A stretch of 25,121 nucleotides of DNA from the IMG/VR virus record IMGVR_UViG_3300035704_000391, positions 1 through 25,121 of that record; one strand, written 5' to 3'. A program made the translations under genes and the position numbers. Source of the DNA: a virus. The notes beneath the pieces were generated by a model. It was not told where the DNA came from. It made no database searches and saw only the letters and a program-made list of their open reading frames with translations. Positions 6,355 to 25,121 of the stretch are shown piece after piece (within the stretch, counting starts at the first letter, position 1; every line of letters starts with the position of its first letter).

Positions 6355-9089
6355 TAGTCAGCCTCCGGAGTCTCGGCATCGGCGCCGCGAATGAACTCTT
6401 TCCATCCCCAGGCTTCCGGCTGCGCTGTGCCCACTTCGCGCATCCAGGCACGGATCGAGTAGACGCGGCCTGTCGGCGTTCCTGCTCCCTGCGGAGTGGC
6501 CCTCAGGCGCCACAGACGCCCGCGCAGGTTCGGAGGAACGCGGAATTCGTAAATGTCGCGGTCCGACTCCGGCCCGTCGAAAGTGAACCGCGGCGAGAGG
6601 CCATCGGGCAGATCGGTAGAAATCTCGATATTGAACTGCCCCACGGTGTCCGCTTCGAAGCGCTGCGCCATCTGAACGCGTTCACTGCTGAAGTCGAGCA
6701 CCTGTGTGGAGCGAATCGACGCATCGCGCTCTTCTAGCGACCAATAAATATAGAGTCCCTGCACCGCCGGCGGGACGTTGCCGCCTTGCGTCGGGTCGCC
6801 GGTTGGATCGAGCGGATCGATCTCGGTGCGGACGCTGATGTGGTACGGCCCATCGTCGCCCCAGTCATCCGGAAGCGGCATGTAAAACTTTTGGCGAGAC
6901 GTTCCTGTGAACGATGCCTTGTAAGGAGCCGGCACGGATGACAACGGCCCAGCCGTGTCCGTTGCGTTGAACAGCAGCCACACGTTCATCGTGGCGCCGT
7001 TTAGTTCCGCATCGATGACTACTTCCTGATAGTCCTTCGCCTGGTCGCCGAGCCCTTGATCCAAGAACCGCGTTTGCCAGACGCTCGGAGCCGTGCCAGC
7101 GACCTGGCGCGACATGAGTAGATAACCTTCCGCATCCCCCGCGAACCAGGTGTATTTGTTGCCGAACGGGATTGCCGTCGTCAGCGCAATTCCGAAGTTG
7201 CTGGTGAAGCTCGCCCATCGGTCAATCTCGGGGTGGTAAAGAAAAGCGGCGCCGATGATGTCTCCAGGCGATCCTCCGCCATTCCCAAGCACGGCCGTTC
7301 CGTTCTGATAGCAAGCAAACGGGTATTGCGGCGTGCCGAGAAGATCCTGCCCGCGCTGTCCAGCTACGATGTCGCTGAACCCAGGCTTGAGCCAGCGCTT
7401 TCCCATAAACACAGGCGCAAGCTTGTCGCTCGCGCACTTGATGGCATACATATCGAACCGGTACACGCCATCCGGCCCGAGCGCGAGATCAAAGCCGCCG
7501 GCTTTCGTCACACAGCCCTTGTCGATAATGCCCGAGGTCGCTTCCGTTTCCGTGAGCTGGCCCGTGACGATGTCGCCGTACACCGTCCATACGGTGCGTT
7601 GCTTGTAAATGGCCAGCACTTCCGTGTGCAGGGTCATGTCTTTGATGCTGTCGTCGGGGAGCCCAACCTGCGTCCAGTTTCCGGTCTCGGCGTTATCTTG
7701 CGAGGCCGGGAAAAGCGGGATGCCGTTCTGGCTCCAGTACATGCGTCCGTTCTTCCAAGCGGCCAGCACGTTGAAGTACGGCCCGGCGATTCCCATATCG
7801 TCGCTCGCCACTCCACTCGGCGGCGGGTCGTTCGTCGTTGGCATTTCGATGCCGACAAGCGTGAGCTGCAGGTCCGGTGCGCCGTCCGTGTAACTCGTCG
7901 TCGTCGCGTCTGCAAACTCGATCACCTGATAGGCGTTGCCGAGCGTCCCGCCCTCGCGGTAAAGCCGCTGCCGCACGATGTCTTGGCCGGCAGGGGGAGC
8001 GTCCCAGGTAAGATCCACCAGCCCGTTGCTTGGCGTCACTTCGGCGCTCACTGGTCCAGGATTCGTTTCGAGGCCAGCCGAATTCACGAAAGTGCGGTAA
8101 TACTGATAAGTTCCGACTGCTCCCGCGCTGGCATCAACCGCGAAGCCGCCTTCCGCAATCGGCGCGGTGCCTGGGGCGGCCGGCGCGCCAGCAACGCCAC
8201 TCGTAGGCATCAGCACGGCTGAAGGCGTGGCAATCGTGTCCACCCACGGCGTATCATTGCTCGGGTACGTCGATGTGAGTGCCGTTAGGCAATAGGCGCC
8301 GGTCGGGTCCAGCCCGTTGCCGAATTGCTTCAGGAACGTCGAGGAACCAGAACCAGACTGCCGGTAAAGCCGAATCGCGCCCACGGCAGCGTAGGGCAAA
8401 CCGAGAATCGCGTTAGCTCCGCCCGCCGAAGAAATCGTTACACCCGGGCCTGGCGCAGATTCGTAAGGCGTGAGAAAGCCGCCACTCTCCGGAGCCGCGA
8501 ACGTTACATAAGTGCAGTAGTAAGTGTAGTCGCCCACCAGCGGGCCATCGCCGCTCGTGTTGGCTACCGCTGTAATCGATGAACCTGGGATGTCCGGAAG
8601 CCACGGCGTCACAGCCGTTCCCGGGAAAATCTCGGTGAGGATCGCCGGATCGATCTTAAGTTGCTGGAGCGGATCGTGAACCCAAATGAAGCCGTTCCAA
8701 ACGACAATACTTAGCCGCTTGCCGCTCAGCCCGGACGCGACCAGAGTCACGAAGCTGCCATCGCGCCAATAGTAGAGTGCCGTGCCCGCACCAACCAGGA
8801 ACGCGCCGCTCACGCTGTATTGTGGAGTACTGAAACTTCCGAAGCTAATGGACACGATCCCGTTGGTGTACGCCTGCGTCGTCGAGAAATCGTCGAGCTT
8901 ATAAACGGAATGAACCGGCTGGCCGTTCGGCGCTCGGCCGAGGCGCCAGAACGTATCCGCGCCGCGGAGTTCGCCGGCGCTATCGACGCGCCAATTGCGA
9001 AAGTCGATCGCATCGCCTTCGGGCGTCTTGTCGCTGGGCGTAAGTAGATTTAACCCGCCGGGGAAGATCCGTTGTTCTTCGCGCTTCAT
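6354..9089 (-). CDS. Tail nozzle / stabilisation-like protein with fibronectin-like insert
   Basis: 911 residues. The N-terminus has the pattern seen in nozzle or DNA-stabilisation proteins of short-tailed phages (P22 gp10-like, T7 gp12-like): FPGGLNLLTPSDKTPEGDAI near 9-28, then FRNWRVDSAGELRG. Many short strands with aromatic ends follow (ALYYWRDGSF, FIWVHDP, VLAAWKNGRMYWSQ, VWTVYGD, YTWFAGDAEGYLL), which fits a beta-propeller-like body. One or two fibronectin-like segments sit inside (about 165-260 and 325-420; for example YQYYRTFVNSAGLETNPGP). Such proteins form the lower ring of the tail and hold the packaged genome. GGGGAGGG lies eight bases before the ATG, which overlaps the preceding stop as TAATG. 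Placement right after three adaptor-like genes supports the call; P22-type versus T7-type cannot be decided here. Confidence 0.75.
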   Translation of the reverse strand: MKREEQRIFPGGLNLLTPSDKTPEGDAIDFRNWRVDSAGELRGADTFWRLGRAPNGQPVHSVYKLDDFSTTQAYTNGIVSISFGSFSTPQYSVSGAFLVGAGTALYYWRDGSFVTLVASGLSGKRLSIVVWNGFIWVHDPLQQLKIDPAILTEIFPGTAVTPWLPDIPGSSITAVANTSGDGPLVGDYTYYCTYVTFAAPESGGFLTPYESAPGPGVTISSAGGANAILGLPYAAVGAIRLYRQSGSGSSTFLKQFGNGLDPTGAYCLTALTSTYPSNDTPWVDTIATPSAVLMPTSGVAGAPAAPGTAPIAEGGFAVDASAGAVGTYQYYRTFVNSAGLETNPGPVSAEVTPSNGLVDLTWDAPPAGQDIVRQRLYREGGTLGNAYQVIEFADATTTSYTDGAPDLQLTLVGIEMPTTNDPPPSGVASDDMGIAGPYFNVLAAWKNGRMYWSQNGIPLFPASQDNAETGNWTQVGLPDDSIKDMTLHTEVLAIYKQRTVWTVYGDIVTGQLTETEATSGIIDKGCVTKAGGFDLALGPDGVYRFDMYAIKCASDKLAPVFMGKRWLKPGFSDIVAGQRGQDLLGTPQYPFACYQNGTAVLGNGGGSPGDIIGAAFLYHPEIDRWASFTSNFGIALTTAIPFGNKYTWFAGDAEGYLLMSRQVAGTAPSVWQTRFLDQGLGDQAKDYQEVVIDAELNGATMNVWLLFNATDTAGPLSSVPAPYKASFTGTSRQKFYMPLPDDWGDDGPYHISVRTEIDPLDPTGDPTQGGNVPPAVQGLYIYWSLEERDASIRSTQVLDFSSERVQMAQRFEADTVGQFNIEISTDLPDGLSPRFTFDGPESDRDIYEFRVPPNLRGRLWRLRATPQGAGTPTGRVYSIRAWMREVGTAQPEAWGWKEFIRGADAETPEAD

Positions 9090-9712
9090 TACTCAAGCCC
9101 TCCCCAGTAAGTCGTAAACACCTGCTCGTAGAGCGAAATCATGGACTGAGCCGCCGAAACCACTTCGGGCATGGCGTATGGGCTTTCCTTCCCGCGAGCA
9201 CGTGCCAGCGCGAAGTACAGGAAATAATCGGCCACCACGCCCGGAATCGGTACCGTCGTCTGCGTTGTGCTCACCGCCGCCGGCGTCACGTGGCTGATCG
9301 TCTCCAGCTCAGCGCTCGATGACTGCACCGGGTACAGCGTCACCGTGCCGAGCGGCCCGGCGTCCATGCTGTAGCGCGATGGCAACACGCCAGGCGAGCA
9401 CAGCGTCTCAGGCCAAAGCGAATCGTAGGCAAGCAATTCCGCGGCCGACGTTGGCCGAAGCTGTTGGCCATTGACGCTCACGTGGATCGAATCGATCCAA
9501 TCCGCCGGCAGTGCGAGAACAGGCGTCGGCGTTCCCGGGACGCTCACAATCTCGCGCGAGACGAAAAGGCCCAGCTCCGCCAGGCGAAGTGCCGCCTCCT
9601 GGAAGTACCCGTACACTTCGCTCTTTGTGAGCCAGTCCGCGACATCGGTCCAAGCGAATGCGCCGACGCGAGAGAGGAAGTCGATTTCGGTCTGCGTTAG
9701 GTCCCAGCTCAT
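9089..9712 (-). CDS. Neck/adaptor-like protein, paralogue of the preceding gene
   Basis: 207 residues. A helical N-terminal part (TEIDFLSRVGAFAWTDVADW, then an E/A/L-rich helix) is followed by a strand block with LALPADWIDSIHVSVNGQQL, RPTSAAELLAYDSLW (86-100), PSRYSMDAG and VTLYPVQ, and a final helix-rich end. The block LP..., GQQLRP, AEL.A.DS.W, P.RY, YP is shared with the 213-aa gene just upstream, so the two are tandem relatives. Helix-plus-beta proteins of this kind with LP and YP motifs are typical of the ring between portal and tail. ATGA overlaps the previous stop by four bases. Function is inferred from pattern and location. Confidence 0.72.
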   Translation of the reverse strand: MSWDLTQTEIDFLSRVGAFAWTDVADWLTKSEVYGYFQEAALRLAELGLFVSREIVSVPGTPTPVLALPADWIDSIHVSVNGQQLRPTSAAELLAYDSLWPETLCSPGVLPSRYSMDAGPLGTVTLYPVQSSSAELETISHVTPAAVSTTQTTVPIPGVVADYFLYFALARARGKESPYAMPEVVSAAQSMISLYEQVFTTYWGGLE

Positions 9713-10350
9713 TTCACCCTCGTGAGTTCGAATGGCATAGCCGTCGCGAAGCCGCTATCCCGTTGCCGCTCGCGAATCAGATCACCGACCTTCTTCGCTT
9801 CCGCCATGAACTCATCCCGGTAGCCAGAGAATTTGGCCAGCTCCTGGCCGCCCTCGATTTGGCGCAAAGCCCACGCCGAATAGTTCACGGGCGCATACTG
9901 AGAAGCCGCGCGGAGCTGCAAGCTATCGCCGTTCGCCTCCATCGTGGCCGGACAGCACGCGTAAACGATGTTGAGCGTGTCGGCCGCCGCCGGTTGCGGG
10001 TAAATCGCCAGCCAATCGAGCCCGCGCAGAACGTAGCGCTGAGGAATGCCCGGCGTGTTCTGCCAGCCGCTATCGAGCGCTTCAAGTTCGGCGATCGTCG
10101 CCGGCCGGAGTTGCTGGCCAGACGAATTGTAGACCCTCCGCGGCAGGATGAAGTCCGGCAGTGTGGCGAGGACGTTGTATGCGAGCTGTCCACCCGTGAG
10201 CGGAAACGGGAGCGTCCGTTCGAGACAGAGCGAGAGCAGCACAAAGAGGCGCTGCGCCTCATTCAGCGCTCCCGTGGCGTTCGGATAAAAGACGCCGCCG
10301 CCATCGTTTAGCTTCGTCCACGTCAGGGCCTGGAGTTGAGTGAGGGTCAT
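9709..10350 (-). CDS. Neck/adaptor-like protein
   Basis: 213 residues. The N-terminal 60 residues are helical with aromatic and asparagine spots (LNEAQRLFVLLSLCLERTLP). Then follows LATLPDFILPRRVYNSSGQQ and LRPATIAELEALDSGW (81-96), IPQRYVLRGLDWLAIYPQP (102-120), and a C-terminal helical part ending in charged residues (GYRDEFMAEAKKVGDLIRER). It shares the GQQLRP...AEL.A.DS.W...P.RY...YP frame with the following gene. This matches the usual design of head-to-tail adaptor proteins in short-tailed phages. It begins two bases after the stop of the 384-aa gene. A specific named family cannot be assigned by eye. Confidence 0.72.
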   Translation of the reverse strand: MTLTQLQALTWTKLNDGGGVFYPNATGALNEAQRLFVLLSLCLERTLPFPLTGGQLAYNVLATLPDFILPRRVYNSSGQQLRPATIAELEALDSGWQNTPGIPQRYVLRGLDWLAIYPQPAAADTLNIVYACCPATMEANGDSLQLRAASQYAPVNYSAWALRQIEGGQELAKFSGYRDEFMAEAKKVGDLIRERQRDSGFATAMPFELTRVK

Positions 10351-10352
10351 GG

Positions 10353-11507
10353 CTAGTACGTGTACTGCGCGAGCACAGCTTGCCCCGTCGTTGGAATCGC
10401 GGCGCCCAAGAACACGATCAGCAGGCCCGAGGCGTTATAGTCCGTCCCAAGCAGCTTGAGAGTGCCGTTGACCGTTACGATGACCGGCGTGAGCGGTGGA
10501 AAGCTCACCGTGAAAATCGCGTTCGTCCCGTTCACGACGCCCGCAGGGGCCTCGCTTTTGAATGTTCCCGCGCCAGTGGCCAGGTCCGCCGAGTCGTCCA
10601 GCAACAAGTTCCGCGCAATCAGCGGACCGCTGGAACGCAGAACGCGCTGTATCCGGTGTCTGGTGTAGCTGGATTCGAGACGCATCCGCTCGTTCGGGTG
10701 CTTGCCGTTCTCGACGTGGATTTGCCCGTTGAGATGCGCCTCGTAGCGAGACTCCCACCGCATCGCCTCGTTCGCGTCTTTGGAAAGGTCCGCTTTCGCT
10801 CCCGCGATGATCGCCGCCGAGGACACGAAGGCGAGCGGCCCGTCTGTCGTACTGCTTCCGTCGAATCCTTCGCCGATCAGATCGAACGTAATCGGATAGC
10901 CCTGCGCCAGCGTCGGAACCGGGTACAGAAGCACGCGCTGCACCGTCTCGCCCGTCTGGCTGTCAACGCCGTCATCCTTGAGAACATAGTCGGTAGCCGG
11001 GCAGTTGATGGCGAGAAACGAGCCTTCCAATTCTCCGAAGACGTCCTCGTCGATGGCGTCCAGCAGCGCGCCGTTTACCGGACTGCCAACTGAGCGCAGC
11101 TCCCGGCAATTGTCCGGCAAATCATAATACGCTTGCGCGAGCCAGTACGGCCCGGAAGTGCCTCCCTCGAACGGGCGGTCGAGGGTGAGCGACGTTCCGT
11201 CAACTATAGTTGCCGTGTAAAGCGGCCCATAGCCAAGGAACAGCTGCCAGCCGTTCATCGCCGCCGTCCAGGACGTGCCGACGCCGACGCCGGCCGTCGA
11301 TCCTGGCGTGAGCGTAATCGTTCCGGTGTTATAAGCCGCCGTCGTCTCGAGGTAGCCAGAGCCTTCGATGCCCTTCCAGTTCATCGCGGAGAGGATCAGC
11401 TCATAGCGTCCCCGAATCGCGTGATCGATGGTGTCGAGCTTAGTGCCCGGCCCAGCGAACTGCTGAAGCAGGATGCGTATCTGACCCCATGAGTATTGAT
11501 TGACCAC
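10353..11507 (-). CDS. Adaptor-like virion protein with two beta-domain additions
   Basis: 384 residues starting at GTG, directly after the stop of the SGNH fibre gene (TAAGTG). The N-terminal helices (GQIRILLQQFAGPGTKLDTI) and the core block DLPDNCRELRSV (129-140) ... RVLLYPVPTL (191-200) follow the same LP ... YP plan as the next two genes. An inserted beta segment at about 55-125 (TLTPGSTAGVGVGTSWTAAM then LTLDRPFEGGTSGPYW) is of a type common in phage neck and baseplate proteins. A separate C-terminal beta domain (about 322-384) has NGTNAIFTVSFPP, VTVNGTLKLLGTDYNASG and a Y.Y ending, also widespread in phage virion proteins. It is probably the first of three tandem neck proteins. The CDS is firm; the exact structural slot is inferred. 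Confidence 0.75.
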   Translation of the reverse strand: MVNQYSWGQIRILLQQFAGPGTKLDTIDHAIRGRYELILSAMNWKGIEGSGYLETTAAYNTGTITLTPGSTAGVGVGTSWTAAMNGWQLFLGYGPLYTATIVDGTSLTLDRPFEGGTSGPYWLAQAYYDLPDNCRELRSVGSPVNGALLDAIDEDVFGELEGSFLAINCPATDYVLKDDGVDSQTGETVQRVLLYPVPTLAQGYPITFDLIGEGFDGSSTTDGPLAFVSSAAIIAGAKADLSKDANEAMRWESRYEAHLNGQIHVENGKHPNERMRLESSYTRHRIQRVLRSSGPLIARNLLLDDSADLATGAGTFKSEAPAGVVNGTNAIFTVSFPPLTPVIVTVNGTLKLLGTDYNASGLLIVFLGAAIPTTGQAVLAQYTY

Positions 11508-17721: not shown

Positions 17722-18639
17722 TTAGGCGCTGGGTGCCGCCGCCACTCCGTAAAAGCTGTTGTAGCCGGACGAGAACTGCATCCAGCCGGCCGTCTTCATC
17801 GAACGTGACTCGAAATCGATGCCGTGCACGGTGTTGAAGGCTTCGCGGTCGTACCACCGCAATTCGGTCTCCGACGTGTCCGCCATGATGCCCCAAGCGT
17901 GCGCATCGTTCAGGTAGTCCCACACCTCGACGTTCTCGAACGAGGTCATGCCGACGCGTTGCTTGAACGCGTTGATCGCGCGATTCGCAGTGTCCGGACG
18001 AGTGTCGCCCTTGAGCTGCTCCACGCCCACGAACTCGAGCTCCGGAGGAAGCCACAGCGTCTTTGGAACGATGCGCTGCCTCAAGCCACGGTGATTCACA
18101 GTGCGCCGCAGCAACGTCAGCAGCAAACGAATCGAATCCACGTCGGGATCCGCTGCGGTGGCCAGCACGTTGCTCTGCGTCCCGCCGCCGATGAGCGGAT
18201 GGGACTGCGAGAACAGCGGCACACCATCGGGTCCGTTAACGGTGAAGCCGGTATTGAACGTGTACGCCGCACTCACTTCGCGCGTTTCATGCGCCGACTT
18301 GCCCAACTCTTTCGCCAATTTCGCGAAGACGCCGAACTGGTCGTTGTCCATCGCAATTTTGGTGACTTTGAAGCCGAGCCCGTACTGCAAGTGAATGTAG
18401 TTCTTGCGGAAGCCCGGCAGCGGCGTATCGAAACGCACGCCGACGCCTTCGCCTACGACCGGGATCGTGCCGAAGCCGGTCACTTCGGTCGTTTGTTCGA
18501 GCGAGCGTTTGCTCGTCATCATCCGGAAGAACTTTTGGAACTGAGGCGGGAACTGGTTGTACCGGTTCATCACGACCTCGTCGATGGCCGGGAGCATCGA
18601 GGTAAGGTTTAAATCCGGCAGTAACTGTCTGACAATCAT
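17722..18639 (-). CDS. Major capsid protein
   Basis: 305 residues. Order of genes (scaffold, decoration-like protein, this gene, then small beta-rich proteins) and several sequence features point to the coat: an N-terminal helical arm (MIVRQLLPDLNLTSMLPAID), a long region with LEQTTEVTGFGTIPVVGEGV, a loop PLFSQSHPLIGGGTQSNVLA typical of coat proteins related to Mu gpT and podovirus coats, and a helix-plus-strand end with LLRRTVNHRGLRQRIVPKTL, WLPPELEFV and a beta C-terminus. An HK97-like fold is expected but not provable here. GGAG lies eight bases before the ATG. The 54 bases between it and the preceding gene show only a weak GGCC hairpin. About 300 residues is within the normal range for podovirus coats. 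Confidence 0.85.
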   Translation of the reverse strand: MIVRQLLPDLNLTSMLPAIDEVVMNRYNQFPPQFQKFFRMMTSKRSLEQTTEVTGFGTIPVVGEGVGVRFDTPLPGFRKNYIHLQYGLGFKVTKIAMDNDQFGVFAKLAKELGKSAHETREVSAAYTFNTGFTVNGPDGVPLFSQSHPLIGGGTQSNVLATAADPDVDSIRLLLTLLRRTVNHRGLRQRIVPKTLWLPPELEFVGVEQLKGDTRPDTANRAINAFKQRVGMTSFENVEVWDYLNDAHAWGIMADTSETELRWYDREAFNTVHGIDFESRSMKTAGWMQFSSGYNSFYGVAAAPSA

Positions 18640-20015: not shown

Positions 20016-20792
20016 CTAAACTTGGTTACCTCCGGTGTAGACGATGCCCTTCTTCGCGCGGTCCTTGTAGGCTTTCTCGTCCACGCCCATTTCGCGGCAG
20101 ATCGATTTCTGGAAGTCGCTCAGCTCGTCGTTCTCGTCGTCCGAGGTCGTTTTTCCTTTACCCTTCGACTTGTCGCCGCCCGCGGCGGCCGCCCGCTCTT
20201 CGCGTTCGTCCTGCTCCGCTTTCGTGACGATCTTGCCGGACCGCACGCCTTCCAGATAGGCATTGTTCGCCGCCTGGCGTGTCGCCACGCCCTTCGGAAC
20301 GCCCGCCGCCGTCAGCGTTTGAAAGTGCTTCGCCGTCGACTTGAAAAACTCGCTCTTCTCGTCGGCCAGCTCCGGATACTCTTTCGCCAGCGCTGCGTCT
20401 TCGGTGAGCTGACGGGCACGCGATTCGATGCGCGAATCGACGCTTTCGCCGGAGACGAACCCGAGCTTTTCAGCGAGTTCCTTGAAGCCCTTCACTCCTT
20501 TTTTCGAGAGCACCTCAAGCGGATCCTCTTCGGTCTCCGTCTCGATGGGCGTGTCGGCTTTCGCCGCCGGTTTCTTCTTCGCCTCTTCGTGCCAGTACCG
20601 GGCCGCCTGGTCTTTTTCGGCGATCTGCGCGTCTTTCGCCGTGCTCTCAGCCTTCAGCGCGTCGATCTGAGCTTGCAGGGCGGCCATCGCCGCCGTGTTA
20701 TCGACCGGCGGTGCAGCAGCTCCGCCGCCGCCGTCCGCTCCGGCTGCCGCCTCGTCGCATAAAACCGTCTTCCAACAGTCCAGAAATTTCAA
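20016..20792 (-). CDS. Capsid scaffolding protein
   Basis: 258 residues. It has the usual scaffold make-up: a flexible A/G/P-rich start, a long coiled coil (LQAQIDALKAESTAKDAQIA then EKDQAARYWHEEAKKK), an acidic linker (TPIETETEEDPLEVL), further helices rich in E, K and A, a G/K-rich flexible hinge (GGDKSKGKGKTTSDDENDE), and a compact C-terminal helical motif (224-249: LSDFQKSICREMG continuing VDEKAYKDRAKKG). In P22 and other phages a basic C-terminal helix-turn-helix of the scaffold binds coat protein, so this end is the likely coat-binding part. The start is TTG at 20792, which overlaps the preceding stop as TTGA and has GGAG eight bases upstream. Upstream in-frame codons would extend into the previous gene and look non-coding. 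Located just before head genes, as expected. Confidence 0.82.
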   Translation of the reverse strand: MKFLDCWKTVLCDEAAAGADGGGGAAAPPVDNTAAMAALQAQIDALKAESTAKDAQIAEKDQAARYWHEEAKKKPAAKADTPIETETEEDPLEVLSKKGVKGFKELAEKLGFVSGESVDSRIESRARQLTEDAALAKEYPELADEKSEFFKSTAKHFQTLTAAGVPKGVATRQAANNAYLEGVRSGKIVTKAEQDEREERAAAAGGDKSKGKGKTTSDDENDELSDFQKSICREMGVDEKAYKDRAKKGIVYTGGNQV

Positions 20793-21136
20793 AGGTTCAA
20801 CTCCTTGCCGAACGCCGTGCCAGCGTAGAGGTCCGCGCGTTTGCGCACGTATTCCTCTTTGCACGTGGCACAGACGACGGCGTAAATGCCGTCGATGTTG
20901 ATCACGTACATCCGGGTTGTCGGAAGATTATGCGAATTGTTCAGGGTTTCCGTTGGGATCTCGCAGATCTGGCAACCCTTGGGCACCGTTCCGGCGAGGA
21001 CATCGAGCGCGTGGGCGTGCCACTCGTGGCAGCGCGGACACATACGTTGCCCAGTGGAGATGTTTATGAGATCGGACGGCCCGACCTGGCGCGAACACCA
21101 GTGGCAGCGTTCGGCCATGACGACGAGCGCGCTCAT
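20789..21136 (-). CDS. Small protein with four CxxC pairs, probable zinc-binding
   Basis: 115 residues with four CxxC pairs: C11/C14 (CHWC), C33/C36 (CPRC), C55/C58 (CQIC) and C89/C92 (CATC). Pairs one and two, and three and four, could each form a zinc-ribbon site. Between them are LINISTGQRM and MYVINIDGIYAVVC, the kind of strands that hold such ribbons. Role may be nucleic-acid or protein binding; no enzyme motif is present. It overlaps the preceding gene by ATGA. A second ATG at residue 7 sits just before the first CxxC and could be the start, but the overlap favours the first. It lies directly before the scaffold gene. Confidence 0.72.
   Translation of the reverse strand: MSALVVMAERCHWCSRQVGPSDLINISTGQRMCPRCHEWHAHALDVLAGTVPKGCQICEIPTETLNNSHNLPTTRMYVINIDGIYAVVCATCKEEYVRKRADLYAGTAFGKELNL
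20801..20804 (-). promoter_or_regulatory. Ribosome binding site for the TTG start of the scaffold gene
   Basis: GGAG is placed eight bases before TTG on the minus strand, inside the end of the zinc-protein gene. With the TTGA stop-start overlap it explains an otherwise rare start codon and suggests scaffold translation is coupled and possibly kept moderate. Confidence 0.5.
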
Positions 21137-21357
21137 TTCTCGTGGTGGAAATTGTCGGCGAACTGCGCACGCTTGCGCTCTGCCGGATCGGCCGAGTGCT
21201 CGGCCTTCTTGATCCTGCTCATCGGGATCGGCTGACCTTCCGGGATGCCCAGGTCTTCATGCAATAGCCCTTTGTGCGTCGGCTTGATGTGGACGCCCGC
21301 CGCTCTGTTCTCGCGGTCGAGGACTTTCTCAAACCCTGGATGTTTGCTTGTCTTCAT
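21133..21357 (-). CDS. Small HPGF-motif protein
   Basis: 74 residues from the ATG at 21357, chosen because AGGAG lies seven bases upstream and it follows the preceding stop directly; the open frame extends further up but only as sequence overlapping the previous gene. The protein is hydrophilic: MKTSKHPGFEKVLDRENRAA, then HIKPTHKGLLHEDLGIPEGQ, and a charged helical end with SADPAERKRAQFADNFHHEK. The start KTSKHPGFEKV recurs almost unchanged in a second small gene at 22242-22442 (KTSSHPGFDKM). No known function. Probably a small virion or early assembly component, but this is only from position. Confidence 0.7.
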   Translation of the reverse strand: MKTSKHPGFEKVLDRENRAAGVHIKPTHKGLLHEDLGIPEGQPIPMSRIKKAEHSADPAERKRAQFADNFHHEK

Positions 21358-22241: not shown

Positions 22242-22442
22242 CTAGCAGCCCTCGGGCGGCATGTTGCCCGGCAACGGTGCGCTCGTCGGTCCGCCGGCCA
22301 TCGGAGGTCCGGGCGGCGGCGCCGCTTGCGGCATCGGCGGTTCCAGCGCCTTCTTGGCTCCGGCCTTGAAGCCAGGGTGCTTGCCGCCGTGGTGCACCAT
22401 CTTGTCGAAACCTGGGTGACTACTGGTCTTGTGTTTTGCCAT
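22242..22442 (-). CDS. Small HPGF-motif protein with proline-rich tail
   Basis: 66 residues from the ATG at 22442 (MAKHKTSSHPGFDKMVHHGG). It has two HPGF copies (residues 9-12 and 23-26), then a proline/glycine/alanine-rich tail and ends PPEGC. The open frame extends 27 codons upstream but that part is only arginine-rich sequence antiphase to the preceding gene. It overlaps that gene by 23 bases. The motif is shared with the gene at 21133-21357. Basic start and disordered tail suggest a binding peptide rather than an enzyme. Confidence 0.62.
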   Translation of the reverse strand: MAKHKTSSHPGFDKMVHHGGKHPGFKAGAKKALEPPMPQAAPPPGPPMAGGPTSAPLPGNMPPEGC

Positions 22443-22626
22443 TTGCGTCTTCTTTCGCTGCCGCCTTGGCGGCTGCCGTCGTTTCTTTCTTCTCGTCGGC
22501 CTTGATCTGCGCGTTGAGCTCACTCGCCAGCGCGTTAAAGTGCGCGCGCCCGGCGTCGTCGAGCGTCGTCGAGTTCTTGAGCCGATCCGCGATCAACGCC
22601 CGGCAAACCTTTGCATACACGTGCAT
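22420..22626 (-). CDS. Small helical protein with charged Ala/Lys tail
   Basis: 68 residues. The first half is a helical domain (YAKVCRALIADRLKNSTTLD, then HFNALASELNAQIK) and the second half is A/K/E/D-rich (KKETTAAAKAAAKEDANGKT), likely extended or helical and solvent exposed. Its ATG shares a base with the preceding stop (TAATG). No family is recognised. Confidence 0.62.
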   Translation of the reverse strand: MHVYAKVCRALIADRLKNSTTLDDAGRAHFNALASELNAQIKADEKKETTAAAKAAAKEDANGKTQDQ

Positions 22627-22886
22627 TACGTCCTCTTACCTTCCAATTCCTGCTCGATGATCGCCGGCAGATGACGCGCTCGATCGAGTGCGTTCACCGC
22701 CCCGACCGCTTTGCGCCACTCGTCGGCGTCCTTCGCTGTCACGCACGCTCGCCGTGCGTCCTCAGCCAGTAAGTCGAGGCGAGTTTTGAAACTGTTCCAA
22801 GCACGCGATTCCGTCATGTCGCGCAGCTCGCGAATCGTTAACGGGTCCGGGCCGCGGGCAACGATGACTTTTCCGGCTAGATCCAT
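22626..22886 (-). CDS. Small helical protein of unknown function
   Basis: 86 residues. A short strand start (MDLAGKVIVARGPDPLTIRE) is followed by three likely helices with evenly spaced leucines and alanines (SFKTRLDLLAEDARRACVTA, DEWRKAVGAVNALDRARHLP, AIIEQELEGK). It may be a small helical bundle, as in minor head or packaging accessory proteins. It overlaps the previous gene by ten bases. Confidence 0.62.
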   Translation of the reverse strand: MDLAGKVIVARGPDPLTIRELRDMTESRAWNSFKTRLDLLAEDARRACVTAKDADEWRKAVGAVNALDRARHLPAIIEQELEGKRT

Positions 22887-23254
22887 GGCAGCGGCTCCGG
22901 GGGATCGTCCGGCCCATCGGCGCCAGACGGCGCGAACGTGAACCCCGCGGCCGTCACCATTCGAACTGGCGCTCCTTCGGCCACTACGGGGAATTCTGGG
23001 AACGGATTCAACTCCCCTGGTAGCTCTTTCTTCTCCCGGAAGTAGGCAGCCAGCTTCTCAGCATCGAGTGAGCCATAAGGACTAGCGCCAGAACTCACGC
23101 GAACTCCGCGCCGCGCTCGATTGCGATACGCGCGTTCATTGACGCCCATCCCTCGGCAAATTGCTTTTTGCTCCGCGTCCAGCCGCGGCCACGGCGCTCG
23201 ATCAAGAATCCGCTCCCTGAGCCGGATTAGCGCCTTTTGCGCACGCTTAAACAT
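22877..23254 (-). CDS. Protein with scaffold-like C-terminal motif near its N-terminus
   Basis: 125 residues. It opens with a basic helix (MFKRAQKALIRLRERILDRA). Residues 25-50 (LDAEQKAICRGMG continuing VNERAYRNRARRG) match residues 224-249 of the scaffold protein in 15 of 26 positions, with most other changes conservative (K/R, D/N, S/A). After this the sequence is less ordered and ends with a P/D-rich stretch (GADGPDDPPEPLPWI). If that motif binds coat protein, as scaffold C-termini do elsewhere, this protein could enter the procapsid as cargo or help start assembly. The ATG directly follows the preceding stop (TGAATG), with GGGAGG four bases upstream, a strong ribosome site. Confidence 0.7.
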   Translation of the reverse strand: MFKRAQKALIRLRERILDRAPWPRLDAEQKAICRGMGVNERAYRNRARRGVRVSSGASPYGSLDAEKLAAYFREKKELPGELNPFPEFPVVAEGAPVRMVTAAGFTFAPSGADGPDDPPEPLPWI

Positions 23255-23419
23255 TCAGCCTCCCTTTCGGTACTTCAGAATTCGTTTACGGATCGAGTCG
23301 CCGCTCGCTTCGAGCGTCGAGACGTACTTCTCCGGATCGATGAAGATCAGCGCGGCGAAGATCGGCAAGGCGCAAAGCAGGTCAATCAGTAAGCACGTTC
23401 GGACGACGAACTCACGCAT
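23255..23419 (-). CDS. Small single-helix membrane protein
   Basis: 54 residues. One hydrophobic segment (residues 5-27, VVRTCLLIDLLCALPIFAAL) is followed by a basic end (DSIRKRILKYRKGG). The layout suggests a single membrane helix with a positively charged C-terminus. It could be a small accessory membrane protein; a holin role is possible but holins usually lie elsewhere and the sequence gives no proof. The ATG shares a base with the preceding stop (TAATG), and the stop touches the next ATG, so it fits the gene chain exactly, which is the main support for such a short gene. Confidence 0.6.
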   Translation of the reverse strand: MREFVVRTCLLIDLLCALPIFAALIFIDPEKYVSTLEASGDSIRKRILKYRKGG

Positions 23420-23832
23420 TACAAAACGCCTCGGTCATCGTTTAGCGCTTGGTCTCTTTCGGCAGTCAGTTGCTCCGATCCTCGCCGCAGCGTCACAAGC
23501 GCGATCGCCGTCAGCTCGACTAGGCGCTCATAGTCGTTCGCGTACCGTGAGTTCCTCTTTTCATTGAGAAATCCGTTCAGCGCCTCGGCCTGAAGGTGCA
23601 GCAGTTCATGGACCAGCGTTACCTCGGGATCGTTGTTGCCCAGCCACGTTGTGGGGATCTTTGCCGGGTCCAGGATCGTGATAACGGCATCTTTGTAGTC
23701 GCTAAGCTGGTTCACCTTGCCGGCAGGATTGTTCTCCGTTTGTTCCACAACCACGCAACGGATCGTCCAGTCCTGCAAGCGCAGGCGCTTCTGCCAATAG
23801 GGGAGAAGTTCGAAGGCTTCCGGAACGGTCAC
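23419..23832 (-). CDS. HEXXH-motif protein, putative zinc metallopeptidase-like
   Basis: 137 residues. H75-E76-L-L-H79 inside VTLVHELLHLQAEALNGFLN is a classical zinc-peptidase helix; E102 or E106 in the following helix (YERLVELTAIAL) could be the third ligand, as in gluzincins. The N-terminal half has strands (LQDWTIRCVVVEQ, DAVITILDP), giving a compact mini-protease layout. Similar small HEXXH proteins occur in phage genomes, and their substrates are mostly unknown. It starts at GTG overlapping the portal stop (GTGA) and is directly downstream of portal, where phages often encode head-maturation factors; a classical phage head protease is normally a serine enzyme of a different fold. Activity is inference. 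Confidence 0.68.
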   Translation of the reverse strand: MTVPEAFELLPYWQKRLRLQDWTIRCVVVEQTENNPAGKVNQLSDYKDAVITILDPAKIPTTWLGNNDPEVTLVHELLHLQAEALNGFLNEKRNSRYANDYERLVELTAIALVTLRRGSEQLTAERDQALNDDRGVL

Positions 23833-25121
23833 GCTGCTATCGGACTCCCCGGCGGCACGCCTGGCGCCGGCGCTTTCGGCGCTGCCGGCGGCTTGCCCTT
23901 GAATTCATGCGGCTTGATCGGCGGCGCCACGCTCCCCTGGACAGGCATCGGCGGTTGAATCGGCGCTCCACCCGGCGGCATCATCACGCCTGGCGGCAAG
24001 TTCCCCATTCCCGTCCCAAGCATCTGCGCCGGATTCGTGCCCAGTTGCGAGGCCTGCTGCGCCATCTGCTGCGTAATCGCCTGCACCAGCTTCTTTTGTT
24101 CGAGTTGGTGCAGATGGTCGATGTAGTGCGACCGCAGCGCGAGCAGCGCGTCGTGATCGTCGTAGTGGTCAGCCGTCGCCTCGTTGAGGTCTTTCATGTG
24201 CCGGATCATGTGCAGTTGGTCGTTATCCATCGGATTTACCTGGATCGCCTCGCCCTGCTGCATCCGAGCCCATTCGTCCTTCGGATTGAGCGGTAAGTCC
24301 GGTGTCGGCGGCTTCGGGACGAGGTCCTCGAAGTTTGGATCGCCCAGCGCTTTATGCGCCCGGCGCGTCGTCTCCCAGAGCGCCTCGGGATTCTGCACAA
24401 CCAGCGGGTTCTGTAAGTCAAGCTGGTACAACGCGAGGTCGTTTTCTTTGTCCGCCGCCCTCGACCAGACGCTCGTCGCCAGCTCGAGATGGAAATCGTA
24501 ATCGCCGTTGCGTTCATCTTGCGAGAGGATAGAGCCGCCGTGCGCGACTGGAAACACCCCGTCCGCGTCCTCTTCTGTGACGCGGAAGAAGATTTCCGGA
24601 TCGCTGAATTGCCATTCGAGCTTCCAGAACTTCGCGAAGATCGTCGCGTAGTCCTCGCGCAACGTCGTCGTGTCCATCGTCATGCGGAGGTTGCCCGCCT
24701 GCATGAGCATCGCCTGGCCGGCCGCCGTGCGCGGCGCGTTCGGGCGATCGGACGCGCGGCCCATCGATTGATCGGTTAGCCCCGTCAGGCGCTCGCCGTA
24801 AGCGAGGACGACCTGCTCTTTCGCGGCTACCGCTTCGAGATCGGCGTGGAACTCCATCTGGGACATATCCGTCTTGGGATTGTCCATCGGGATCATCATG
24901 CCGGGCCGAAGCCGGAATTGCTTCGGCTCGAAACCCTGCGCCGGCTTATAGCCGACCGGCGGCGCTACGACGAATTCCATCGCGTCCGTGCCCAGGTTGT
25001 GGTTCGCGCGCACTTCGTCTTCGATGTCGATGGTCTGCTGAATGAGGCCATCGCACCAGTAAGAGCCGTCTTTTTGGTAGCTGGCTTCGACGAACGGCCG
25101 CGGAAACGGGTCCGCCGGATA
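23829..25121 (-). CDS. Portal protein, C-terminal part (cut by the window edge)
   Basis: 430 codons are visible; the frame is open through the right edge, so the N-terminal part lies outside. Visible features fit the portal of podovirus-like phages: MEFVVAPPVGYKPAQGFEPK, RLRPGMMIPMDNPKTD, a long helix AKEQVVLAYGERLTGLTD, the stretch DRPNAPRTAAGQAMLMQAGN, then TLREDYATIFAKFWKLEWQF and a helical C-terminal part (HDALLALRSHYIDHLHQLEQ) with a proline-rich tail ending PPGSPIAA. The portal is a twelve-subunit ring through which DNA enters and leaves the head, and it starts procapsid assembly. An internal GTG at 25013 is not the true start, because upstream codons also read as normal protein. The stop overlaps the HEXXH gene as GTGA. 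Confidence 0.8.
   Translation of the reverse strand, partial: YPADPFPRPFVEASYQKDGSYWCDGLIQQTIDIEDEVRANHNLGTDAMEFVVAPPVGYKPAQGFEPKQFRLRPGMMIPMDNPKTDMSQMEFHADLEAVAAKEQVVLAYGERLTGLTDQSMGRASDRPNAPRTAAGQAMLMQAGNLRMTMDTTTLREDYATIFAKFWKLEWQFSDPEIFFRVTEEDADGVFPVAHGGSILSQDERNGDYDFHLELATSVWSRAADKENDLALYQLDLQNPLVVQNPEALWETTRRAHKALGDPNFEDLVPKPPTPDLPLNPKDEWARMQQGEAIQVNPMDNDQLHMIRHMKDLNEATADHYDDHDALLALRSHYIDHLHQLEQKKLVQAITQQMAQQASQLGTNPAQMLGTGMGNLPPGVMMPPGGAPIQPPMPVQGSVAPPIKPHEFKGKPPAAPKAPAPGVPPGSPIAA

Follow-up and report, generated by a model that had tools for sequence, protein, structure and literature searches.

The window analyzed here is the whole of a virus record of 25,121 bases, possibly a genome fragment, in which the minus strand carries all of the structural genes (the first-pass annotation gave no strand). 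Read from position 25121 downwards, it holds the end of a portal gene (23829-25121, minus; SU10/phrog_1216-like), the upstream part of the record being missing, followed by a gene with an HE..H motif (23419-23832, minus), a 54-aa gene for a probable membrane protein (23255-23419, minus), a gene for a 125-aa protein (22877-23254, minus) and a run of small genes. Still further down come a gene for a cysteine-rich, Zn-ribbon-like protein (20789-21136, minus), the scaffold gene (20016-20792, minus; 258 aa with a TTG start), two genes, the gene of the major capsid protein (17722-18639, minus) and the tail genes. The 54-aa gene directly upstream of the 125-aa gene and an 86-aa gene directly downstream of it (22626-22886, minus) form the left and right borders of what we call the accessory slot. 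By sequence, the coat protein is related to Mu gpT (Pfam PF10124, E = 2e-10; PF25209, E = 7e-11), and it is the presumed partner of the motif described below. The product of 20016-20792 gave no match by itself in the family libraries. Its name in the first-pass annotation, scaffold, is supported by the gene order of the window, which agrees with that of annotated phages with related capsid proteins; there the order runs terminase, portal, small genes, scaffold, two genes and capsid and places the scaffold gene in the same slot upstream of the coat gene. The position just before the scaffold is taken by a GroES-like co-chaperonin in most annotated related phages and by the Zn-ribbon-like protein in the family of the window, with homologues in 51 fetched loci.

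The 125-aa frame has the best codon likelihood of the three frames, and the gene is preceded by a strong Shine-Dalgarno sequence, AAGGGAGG (23259-23266, minus), and packed tightly against its neighbors. Its GC3 of 0.63 is the lowest among the genes checked, and few genes of the module are less typical in codon usage. The protein is predicted to begin with a basic helix (residues 2-19; 23198-23251, minus), which is followed by a scaffold-type motif at residues 25-51 (LDAEQKAICRGMGVNERAYRNRARRGV; 23102-23182, minus), a helix at residues 65-76 and a Pro-rich tail. No Pfam or NCBIfam family (E < 1) and no PADLOC family was found for it, and with the motif removed it had no relatives among phages, viral contigs or the family libraries. 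Seven weak genome matches to the remainder were inspected, and these comprised one scaffold tail and otherwise low-identity alignments, several of which crossed stop codons or lay in a frame that is not coding. Foldseek searches of the models of the 125-aa protein and the scaffold against the PDB returned nothing useful. We also considered whether the remainder derives from the part of the scaffold upstream of its motif, for which there was no profile signal, and whether the similarity continues into the gene after the scaffold, for which there was only one weak gapped alignment passing through a stop codon; the first possibility was rejected.

The first-pass annotation had reported a match of 15 in 26 positions between residues 25-50 of this protein (LDAEQKAICRGMGVNERAYRNRARRG) and residues 224-249 of the scaffold (LSDFQKSICREMGVDEKAYKDRAKKG), and a recount gave the same figure. 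The scaffold motif spans residues 224-250 (20043-20123, minus). The local alignment scores 89, as compared with a maximum of 66 in 20,000 shuffles, and a Gumbel fit yields p ~1.4e-7, or ~7e-5 after correction for every pair of genes in the window. We then built a profile from 35 scaffold C termini, leaving out that of the window itself. Against 25,178 six-frame segments it gave the 125-aa protein 38.1 bits (E = 1.3e-9), while 5,000 shuffles of the same protein reached at most 6.3 bits; a further version of the profile includes the motifs of the 125-aa protein and of the contig L106 (see below), so that the scores of those proteins with it are circular. Outside scaffolds, no sequence of five bacterial genomes exceeded 27 bits with the motif profile, and the highest-scoring ones were phage proteins of the same family. 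Because the independent profile gives 38 bits (E = 1e-9) where shuffled sequences give only 6, the resemblance is, on this sequence evidence, homology rather than chance, which the alignment shuffles, the profile score and the protein shuffles all rule out. AlphaFold2 predicts two short helices joined by a turn in both proteins, with residues 27-36 and 40-49 of the 125-aa protein corresponding exactly to residues 226-235 and 239-247 of the scaffold, and the motif block of the former has a pLDDT of 85-95. The 125-aa protein has the signature L..[EQ]K.I(C/A)..MG[VI]....Y..R, and it keeps every one of the residues L, Y, R and G that are invariant in the family. A further 74 residues follow the motif, which is thus not C-terminal in this protein. 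The likeness to a scaffold ends there: the scaffold profile matches residues 25-55 only, and the long acidic helical body is not found in a protein of 125 aa with a basic start.

To place the motif in a wider context, we collected loci with relatives of the capsid protein from 63 viral contigs and 5 bacterial assemblies, four of these five belonging to the Bryobacterales/Bryobacteraceae (Acidobacteria). About 50 related soil-phage scaffolds carry the motif as a conserved C-terminal helix-turn-helix ending 1-13 residues from the stop, so that the earlier description of it as the scaffold C terminus proved to hold for the whole phage family. In another group of scaffolds the motif is interrupted by a loop insertion, of about 8-17 residues between its two halves (L055, L056, L060, L063, L064, L066, L069, L080, L099 and L100; for example QKQIAIRMLVDDETTPEQAIEKYKARATKGVAM). 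Among 2.9 million viral contigs, the pattern QK.I...MG....AY occurred at 22 places, each one a scaffold tail, and the motif profile run over 257 genomes of the host order found scaffold tails and the contig L106 only. Because these scans return scaffold tails, the motif is a mark of scaffolds of this type and not a general helix-turn-helix (HTH); nor did the profile search bring up a general module unrelated to scaffolds, the outcome that the first-pass annotation had named as damaging to its proposal. A generic bacterial HTH was dismissed on the profile background and on the absence of any HTH family match to the 125-aa protein in Pfam or NCBIfam at E < 1. The motif profile matched nothing among the PDB sequences.

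A motif search of Acidobacteria genomes also led to a Mu-like I protein (PF10123, E = 1e-65) that ends in LNAEQKQVCAALGLSEEQYLQSVEVN. The I and Z proteins of Mu itself end in LSADEQAAVKALGITEAEYLKMKQEQEK, and the coat gene T follows directly. Searching the window with a profile of eight Mu-like I/Z C termini put the 125-aa protein first (E = 2.9e-4) and the scaffold second (E = 1.3e-3), with all others at E > 1; the link requires a profile of several Mu-like proteins, Mu Z alone scoring 5.5 bits against the soil-phage profile. In every scaffold, and likewise in Mu I/Z, 1-14 residues lie between the end of the motif and the C terminus. Since the Mu-like profile ranks the 125-aa protein and the scaffold first and second, the motif is an old C-terminal element of the scaffolds that serve gpT-type coats.

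The two genes of the window were said to lie about 2 kb apart with DNA too diverged for a recent copy; the distance is 2.1 kb, and the DNA identity over the 27 codons of the motif is 44/81, distributed over codon positions 1, 2 and 3 as 17, 19 and 8 of 27. With third positions at saturation, a recent tandem copy of the window's own scaffold is excluded. Amino acid identity over the same codons is 15/27, against a neutral expectation of 6.3 and a maximum of 13 in 20,000 simulations at equal DNA identity, and as this lies above the neutral range, the two copies have therefore long been held to the same amino acid pattern. All four lysines in the second helix of the scaffold motif are replaced by arginine in the 125-aa protein, which preserves the charge of this helix. 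Compared with individual scaffolds, the 125-aa copy matches 17/27 residues in L074, 16/27 in L003 and 15/27 in its own phage, and no close donor was found. Part of the divergence may thus predate capture and have arisen in the scaffold of another phage, and if the gene was recently taken from such a scaffold, the argument from conservation is weaker. The idea of reuse put forward in the first-pass annotation therefore survives in part: the 125-aa protein has a homologous copy of the scaffold motif, yet the copy is not closest to its own scaffold in particular and may come from another phage.

The gene itself is missing from the nearest relatives of the window, which are L003 (capsid 86% identical), L037 and L038 (79%) and L092 (77%). 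Its flanks are better conserved. The 86-aa gene is present in all four and the 54-aa gene in L037, L038 and L092, with L003 lacking it; in L092 the next gene after the 54-aa one is already the homologue of 22626-22886. Other genes, including one for a sigma-70-like protein, fill the slot in L037 and L038, and in L037 (5591-6515, plus) the place of the 125-aa gene is taken by genes for sigma-70-like and LuxR-type HTH proteins. Because none of the four nearest relatives has the gene, we regard it as accessory and dispensable for head assembly, and since it is accessory and its motif is not closest to that of its own scaffold, it may have come from another phage.

Further carriers of the motif were found on L106, a contig of the same phage family whose terminase is 38-66% identical to those of the family and whose portal has a similar start. 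Two unrelated small proteins with the motif flank its terminase gene. The gene at about 8797-9342 (plus), just upstream of the terminase gene, has the motif at the very N terminus of its product (ELEKAQRYIAERLGVRWDRYQARAKTGV), and the gene at 11098-11472 (plus), just downstream, has it in mid-protein (LTDGERRLCAQMGISEAAFALRR) behind a Tat-like signal at the start. With a profile that leaves them out, these proteins score 21.7 and 24.7 bits, below the 125-aa protein and above background. Outside scaffolds, the motif is therefore found in at least three unrelated proteins from two phages, and in none of them is it C-terminal.

How might a scaffold tail serve a second protein? Scaffold fusions take cargo into P22 particles. 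We infer by analogy with P22 and 80α that the motif contacts the coat protein. In P22, the coat N-arm is held by residues 271-300 of the scaffold gp8, which form a U-shaped pair of C-terminal helices, with basic residues of the hairpin touching acidic residues of the arm (PMC9965877), and the 80α scaffold grips its coat with a C-terminal helix and a hook (PMC5644958). The reading that we favor, at slightly better than an even chance, treats the 125-aa protein as an accessory protein that has a homologous copy of the presumed coat-docking hairpin of the scaffold and would be taken into the procapsid. The hairpin would occupy the site of the scaffold tail on the inner face of the coat protein, the protein would enter the procapsid with, or instead of, a few scaffold molecules, and its remainder would be a passenger, acting as a minor factor in assembly or as an internal protein of the head. 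By this analogy, the motif most likely serves for docking to the coat protein. The homology of the motif, the conservation of its residues and of the charge of its second helix, the two-helix form predicted for it, its link to scaffolds and gpT-type coats and its occurrence in two more unrelated small proteins of L106 all support docking. Counting against it, the motif is not terminal and the hairpin might not dock if buried or blocked; in addition, the nearest relatives do without the gene, its codon usage is atypical and the remainder offers no hint of a function in the head.

The same observations have to be weighed under other explanations. SaPI1 CpmB follows the logic of a small helical protein that shares a coat-binding motif with the scaffold (PMC5644958), and the 125-aa protein, small and starting with a helix, could likewise be an alternative or competing scaffold that acts at the same coat site and alters capsid size, nucleation or scaffold number. 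We think this unlikely, because CpmB serves a satellite and has its motif at the C terminus, whereas the record has scaffold, portal and coat genes of its own and the motif of the 125-aa protein is placed elsewhere. Improbable too is that the open reading frame is a non-functional, transient fusion in which a piece of scaffold was captured beside an unrelated frame. Such an origin would agree with the presence of the gene in only one of five close relatives, its slot being empty in L092 and filled by other genes in L037 and L038, with a GC3 that is the lowest of the genes checked and with a remainder that has no relatives. It accords poorly with third positions that are saturated while the amino acids are kept, with the good ribosome-binding site and coding signal, and with the occurrence of similar proteins twice more in L106.

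Slightly more doubtful is the proposal that the hairpin binds another target, such as the portal, the terminase or nucleic acid, either in the scaffold as well or in the 125-aa protein alone. The motif does resemble a short HTH, its copy in the 125-aa protein and the helix before it are very basic, the corresponding slot of L037 holds sigma-like and LuxR-like HTH genes, and the carriers in L106 adjoin the terminase gene. However, the 125-aa protein has no Pfam HTH match, across the 257 genomes the motif points far more specifically to scaffolds than to proteins that bind DNA, and it accompanies coat proteins of the gpT type. Docking to the coat protein thus remains the function we prefer. A broader version of it, in which the scaffold hairpin is a portable tag for import into the head that unrelated accessory proteins gain at various positions and that causes them to be packed into the procapsid, is offered tentatively, and we would sooner doubt it than assume it. 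If it is true, the three carriers in two phages, that is the 125-aa protein and the two proteins of L106, are its first examples.

Several known systems bear on this proposal. In SaPI1 and 80α, as here, a second small protein (CpmB) and the scaffold share a short helical motif, which in their case contacts the coat (PMC5644958). CpmB differs in having its motif at the C terminus, in being encoded by a satellite and in changing capsid size, whereas the motif of the 125-aa protein is near the N terminus and the gene is the phage's own. Measured against CpmB, the 125-aa protein thus has the shared motif, which by analogy would bind the coat, and it does not belong to a satellite that lacks coat and scaffold genes. 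The I and Z proteins of Mu (PF10123) have a C-terminal motif that is homologous by profile, a protease and a scaffold sharing one tail alongside a coat of the gpT family. They arise from an internal start in one gene and keep the motif C-terminal, unlike the two separate genes of the window; no Mu I-type protease was found in the record, where a gene with an HE..H motif (23419-23832) lies just upstream of the accessory slot. The capsid-targeting sequence of T4 is N-terminal and is cleaved by the prohead protease. It is a short module that takes diverse small internal proteins to the scaffold core (PMC3012670). The T4 module has a different sequence and addresses the T4 core, whereas the motif near the N terminus of the 125-aa protein is a copy of the scaffold's own tail, with one carrier known in the window (where the upstream part of the record is missing) and two in L106. 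The hairpin of P22 gp8 is alike in its predicted two-helix shape, and no sequence relation to it was detected. The 125-aa protein therefore fits neither the CpmB nor the T4 definition fully, not being encoded by a satellite, not having a C-terminal motif and not being accompanied by an I-type protease. A scaffold motif on a second protein is known from a satellite, in CpmB, and from the overlapping I and Z genes of Mu; its presence in an accessory phage protein with a gene of its own, at a site other than the C terminus, would show that a docking tag can pass from one protein to another. If this is true, it would provide a simple rule for spotting internal head proteins among phage genes of no assigned function, and gpT-type particles might gain a new cargo tag from it.

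Some further features of the window were noted. The product of the gene at 23419-23832 (minus), directly upstream of the accessory slot, contains a HELLH metal-binding motif and has a weak match to PF14891 (E = 0.005); the gene is present in L003 and L029 and was not found in L037 or L092. Two small proteins, encoded at 22242-22448 and 21133-21357 (both minus), have KTS.HPGF.K motifs in common, and both are found in a single open frame of L037 (SSHPGFDESVNHGKQHPGFEKSLAREN), suggesting that one gene was split or two were fused. The adjoining genes at 9089-9712 and 9709-10350 (minus) are distant tandem paralogues, with 28% identity over 150 aa (E = 6e-9).
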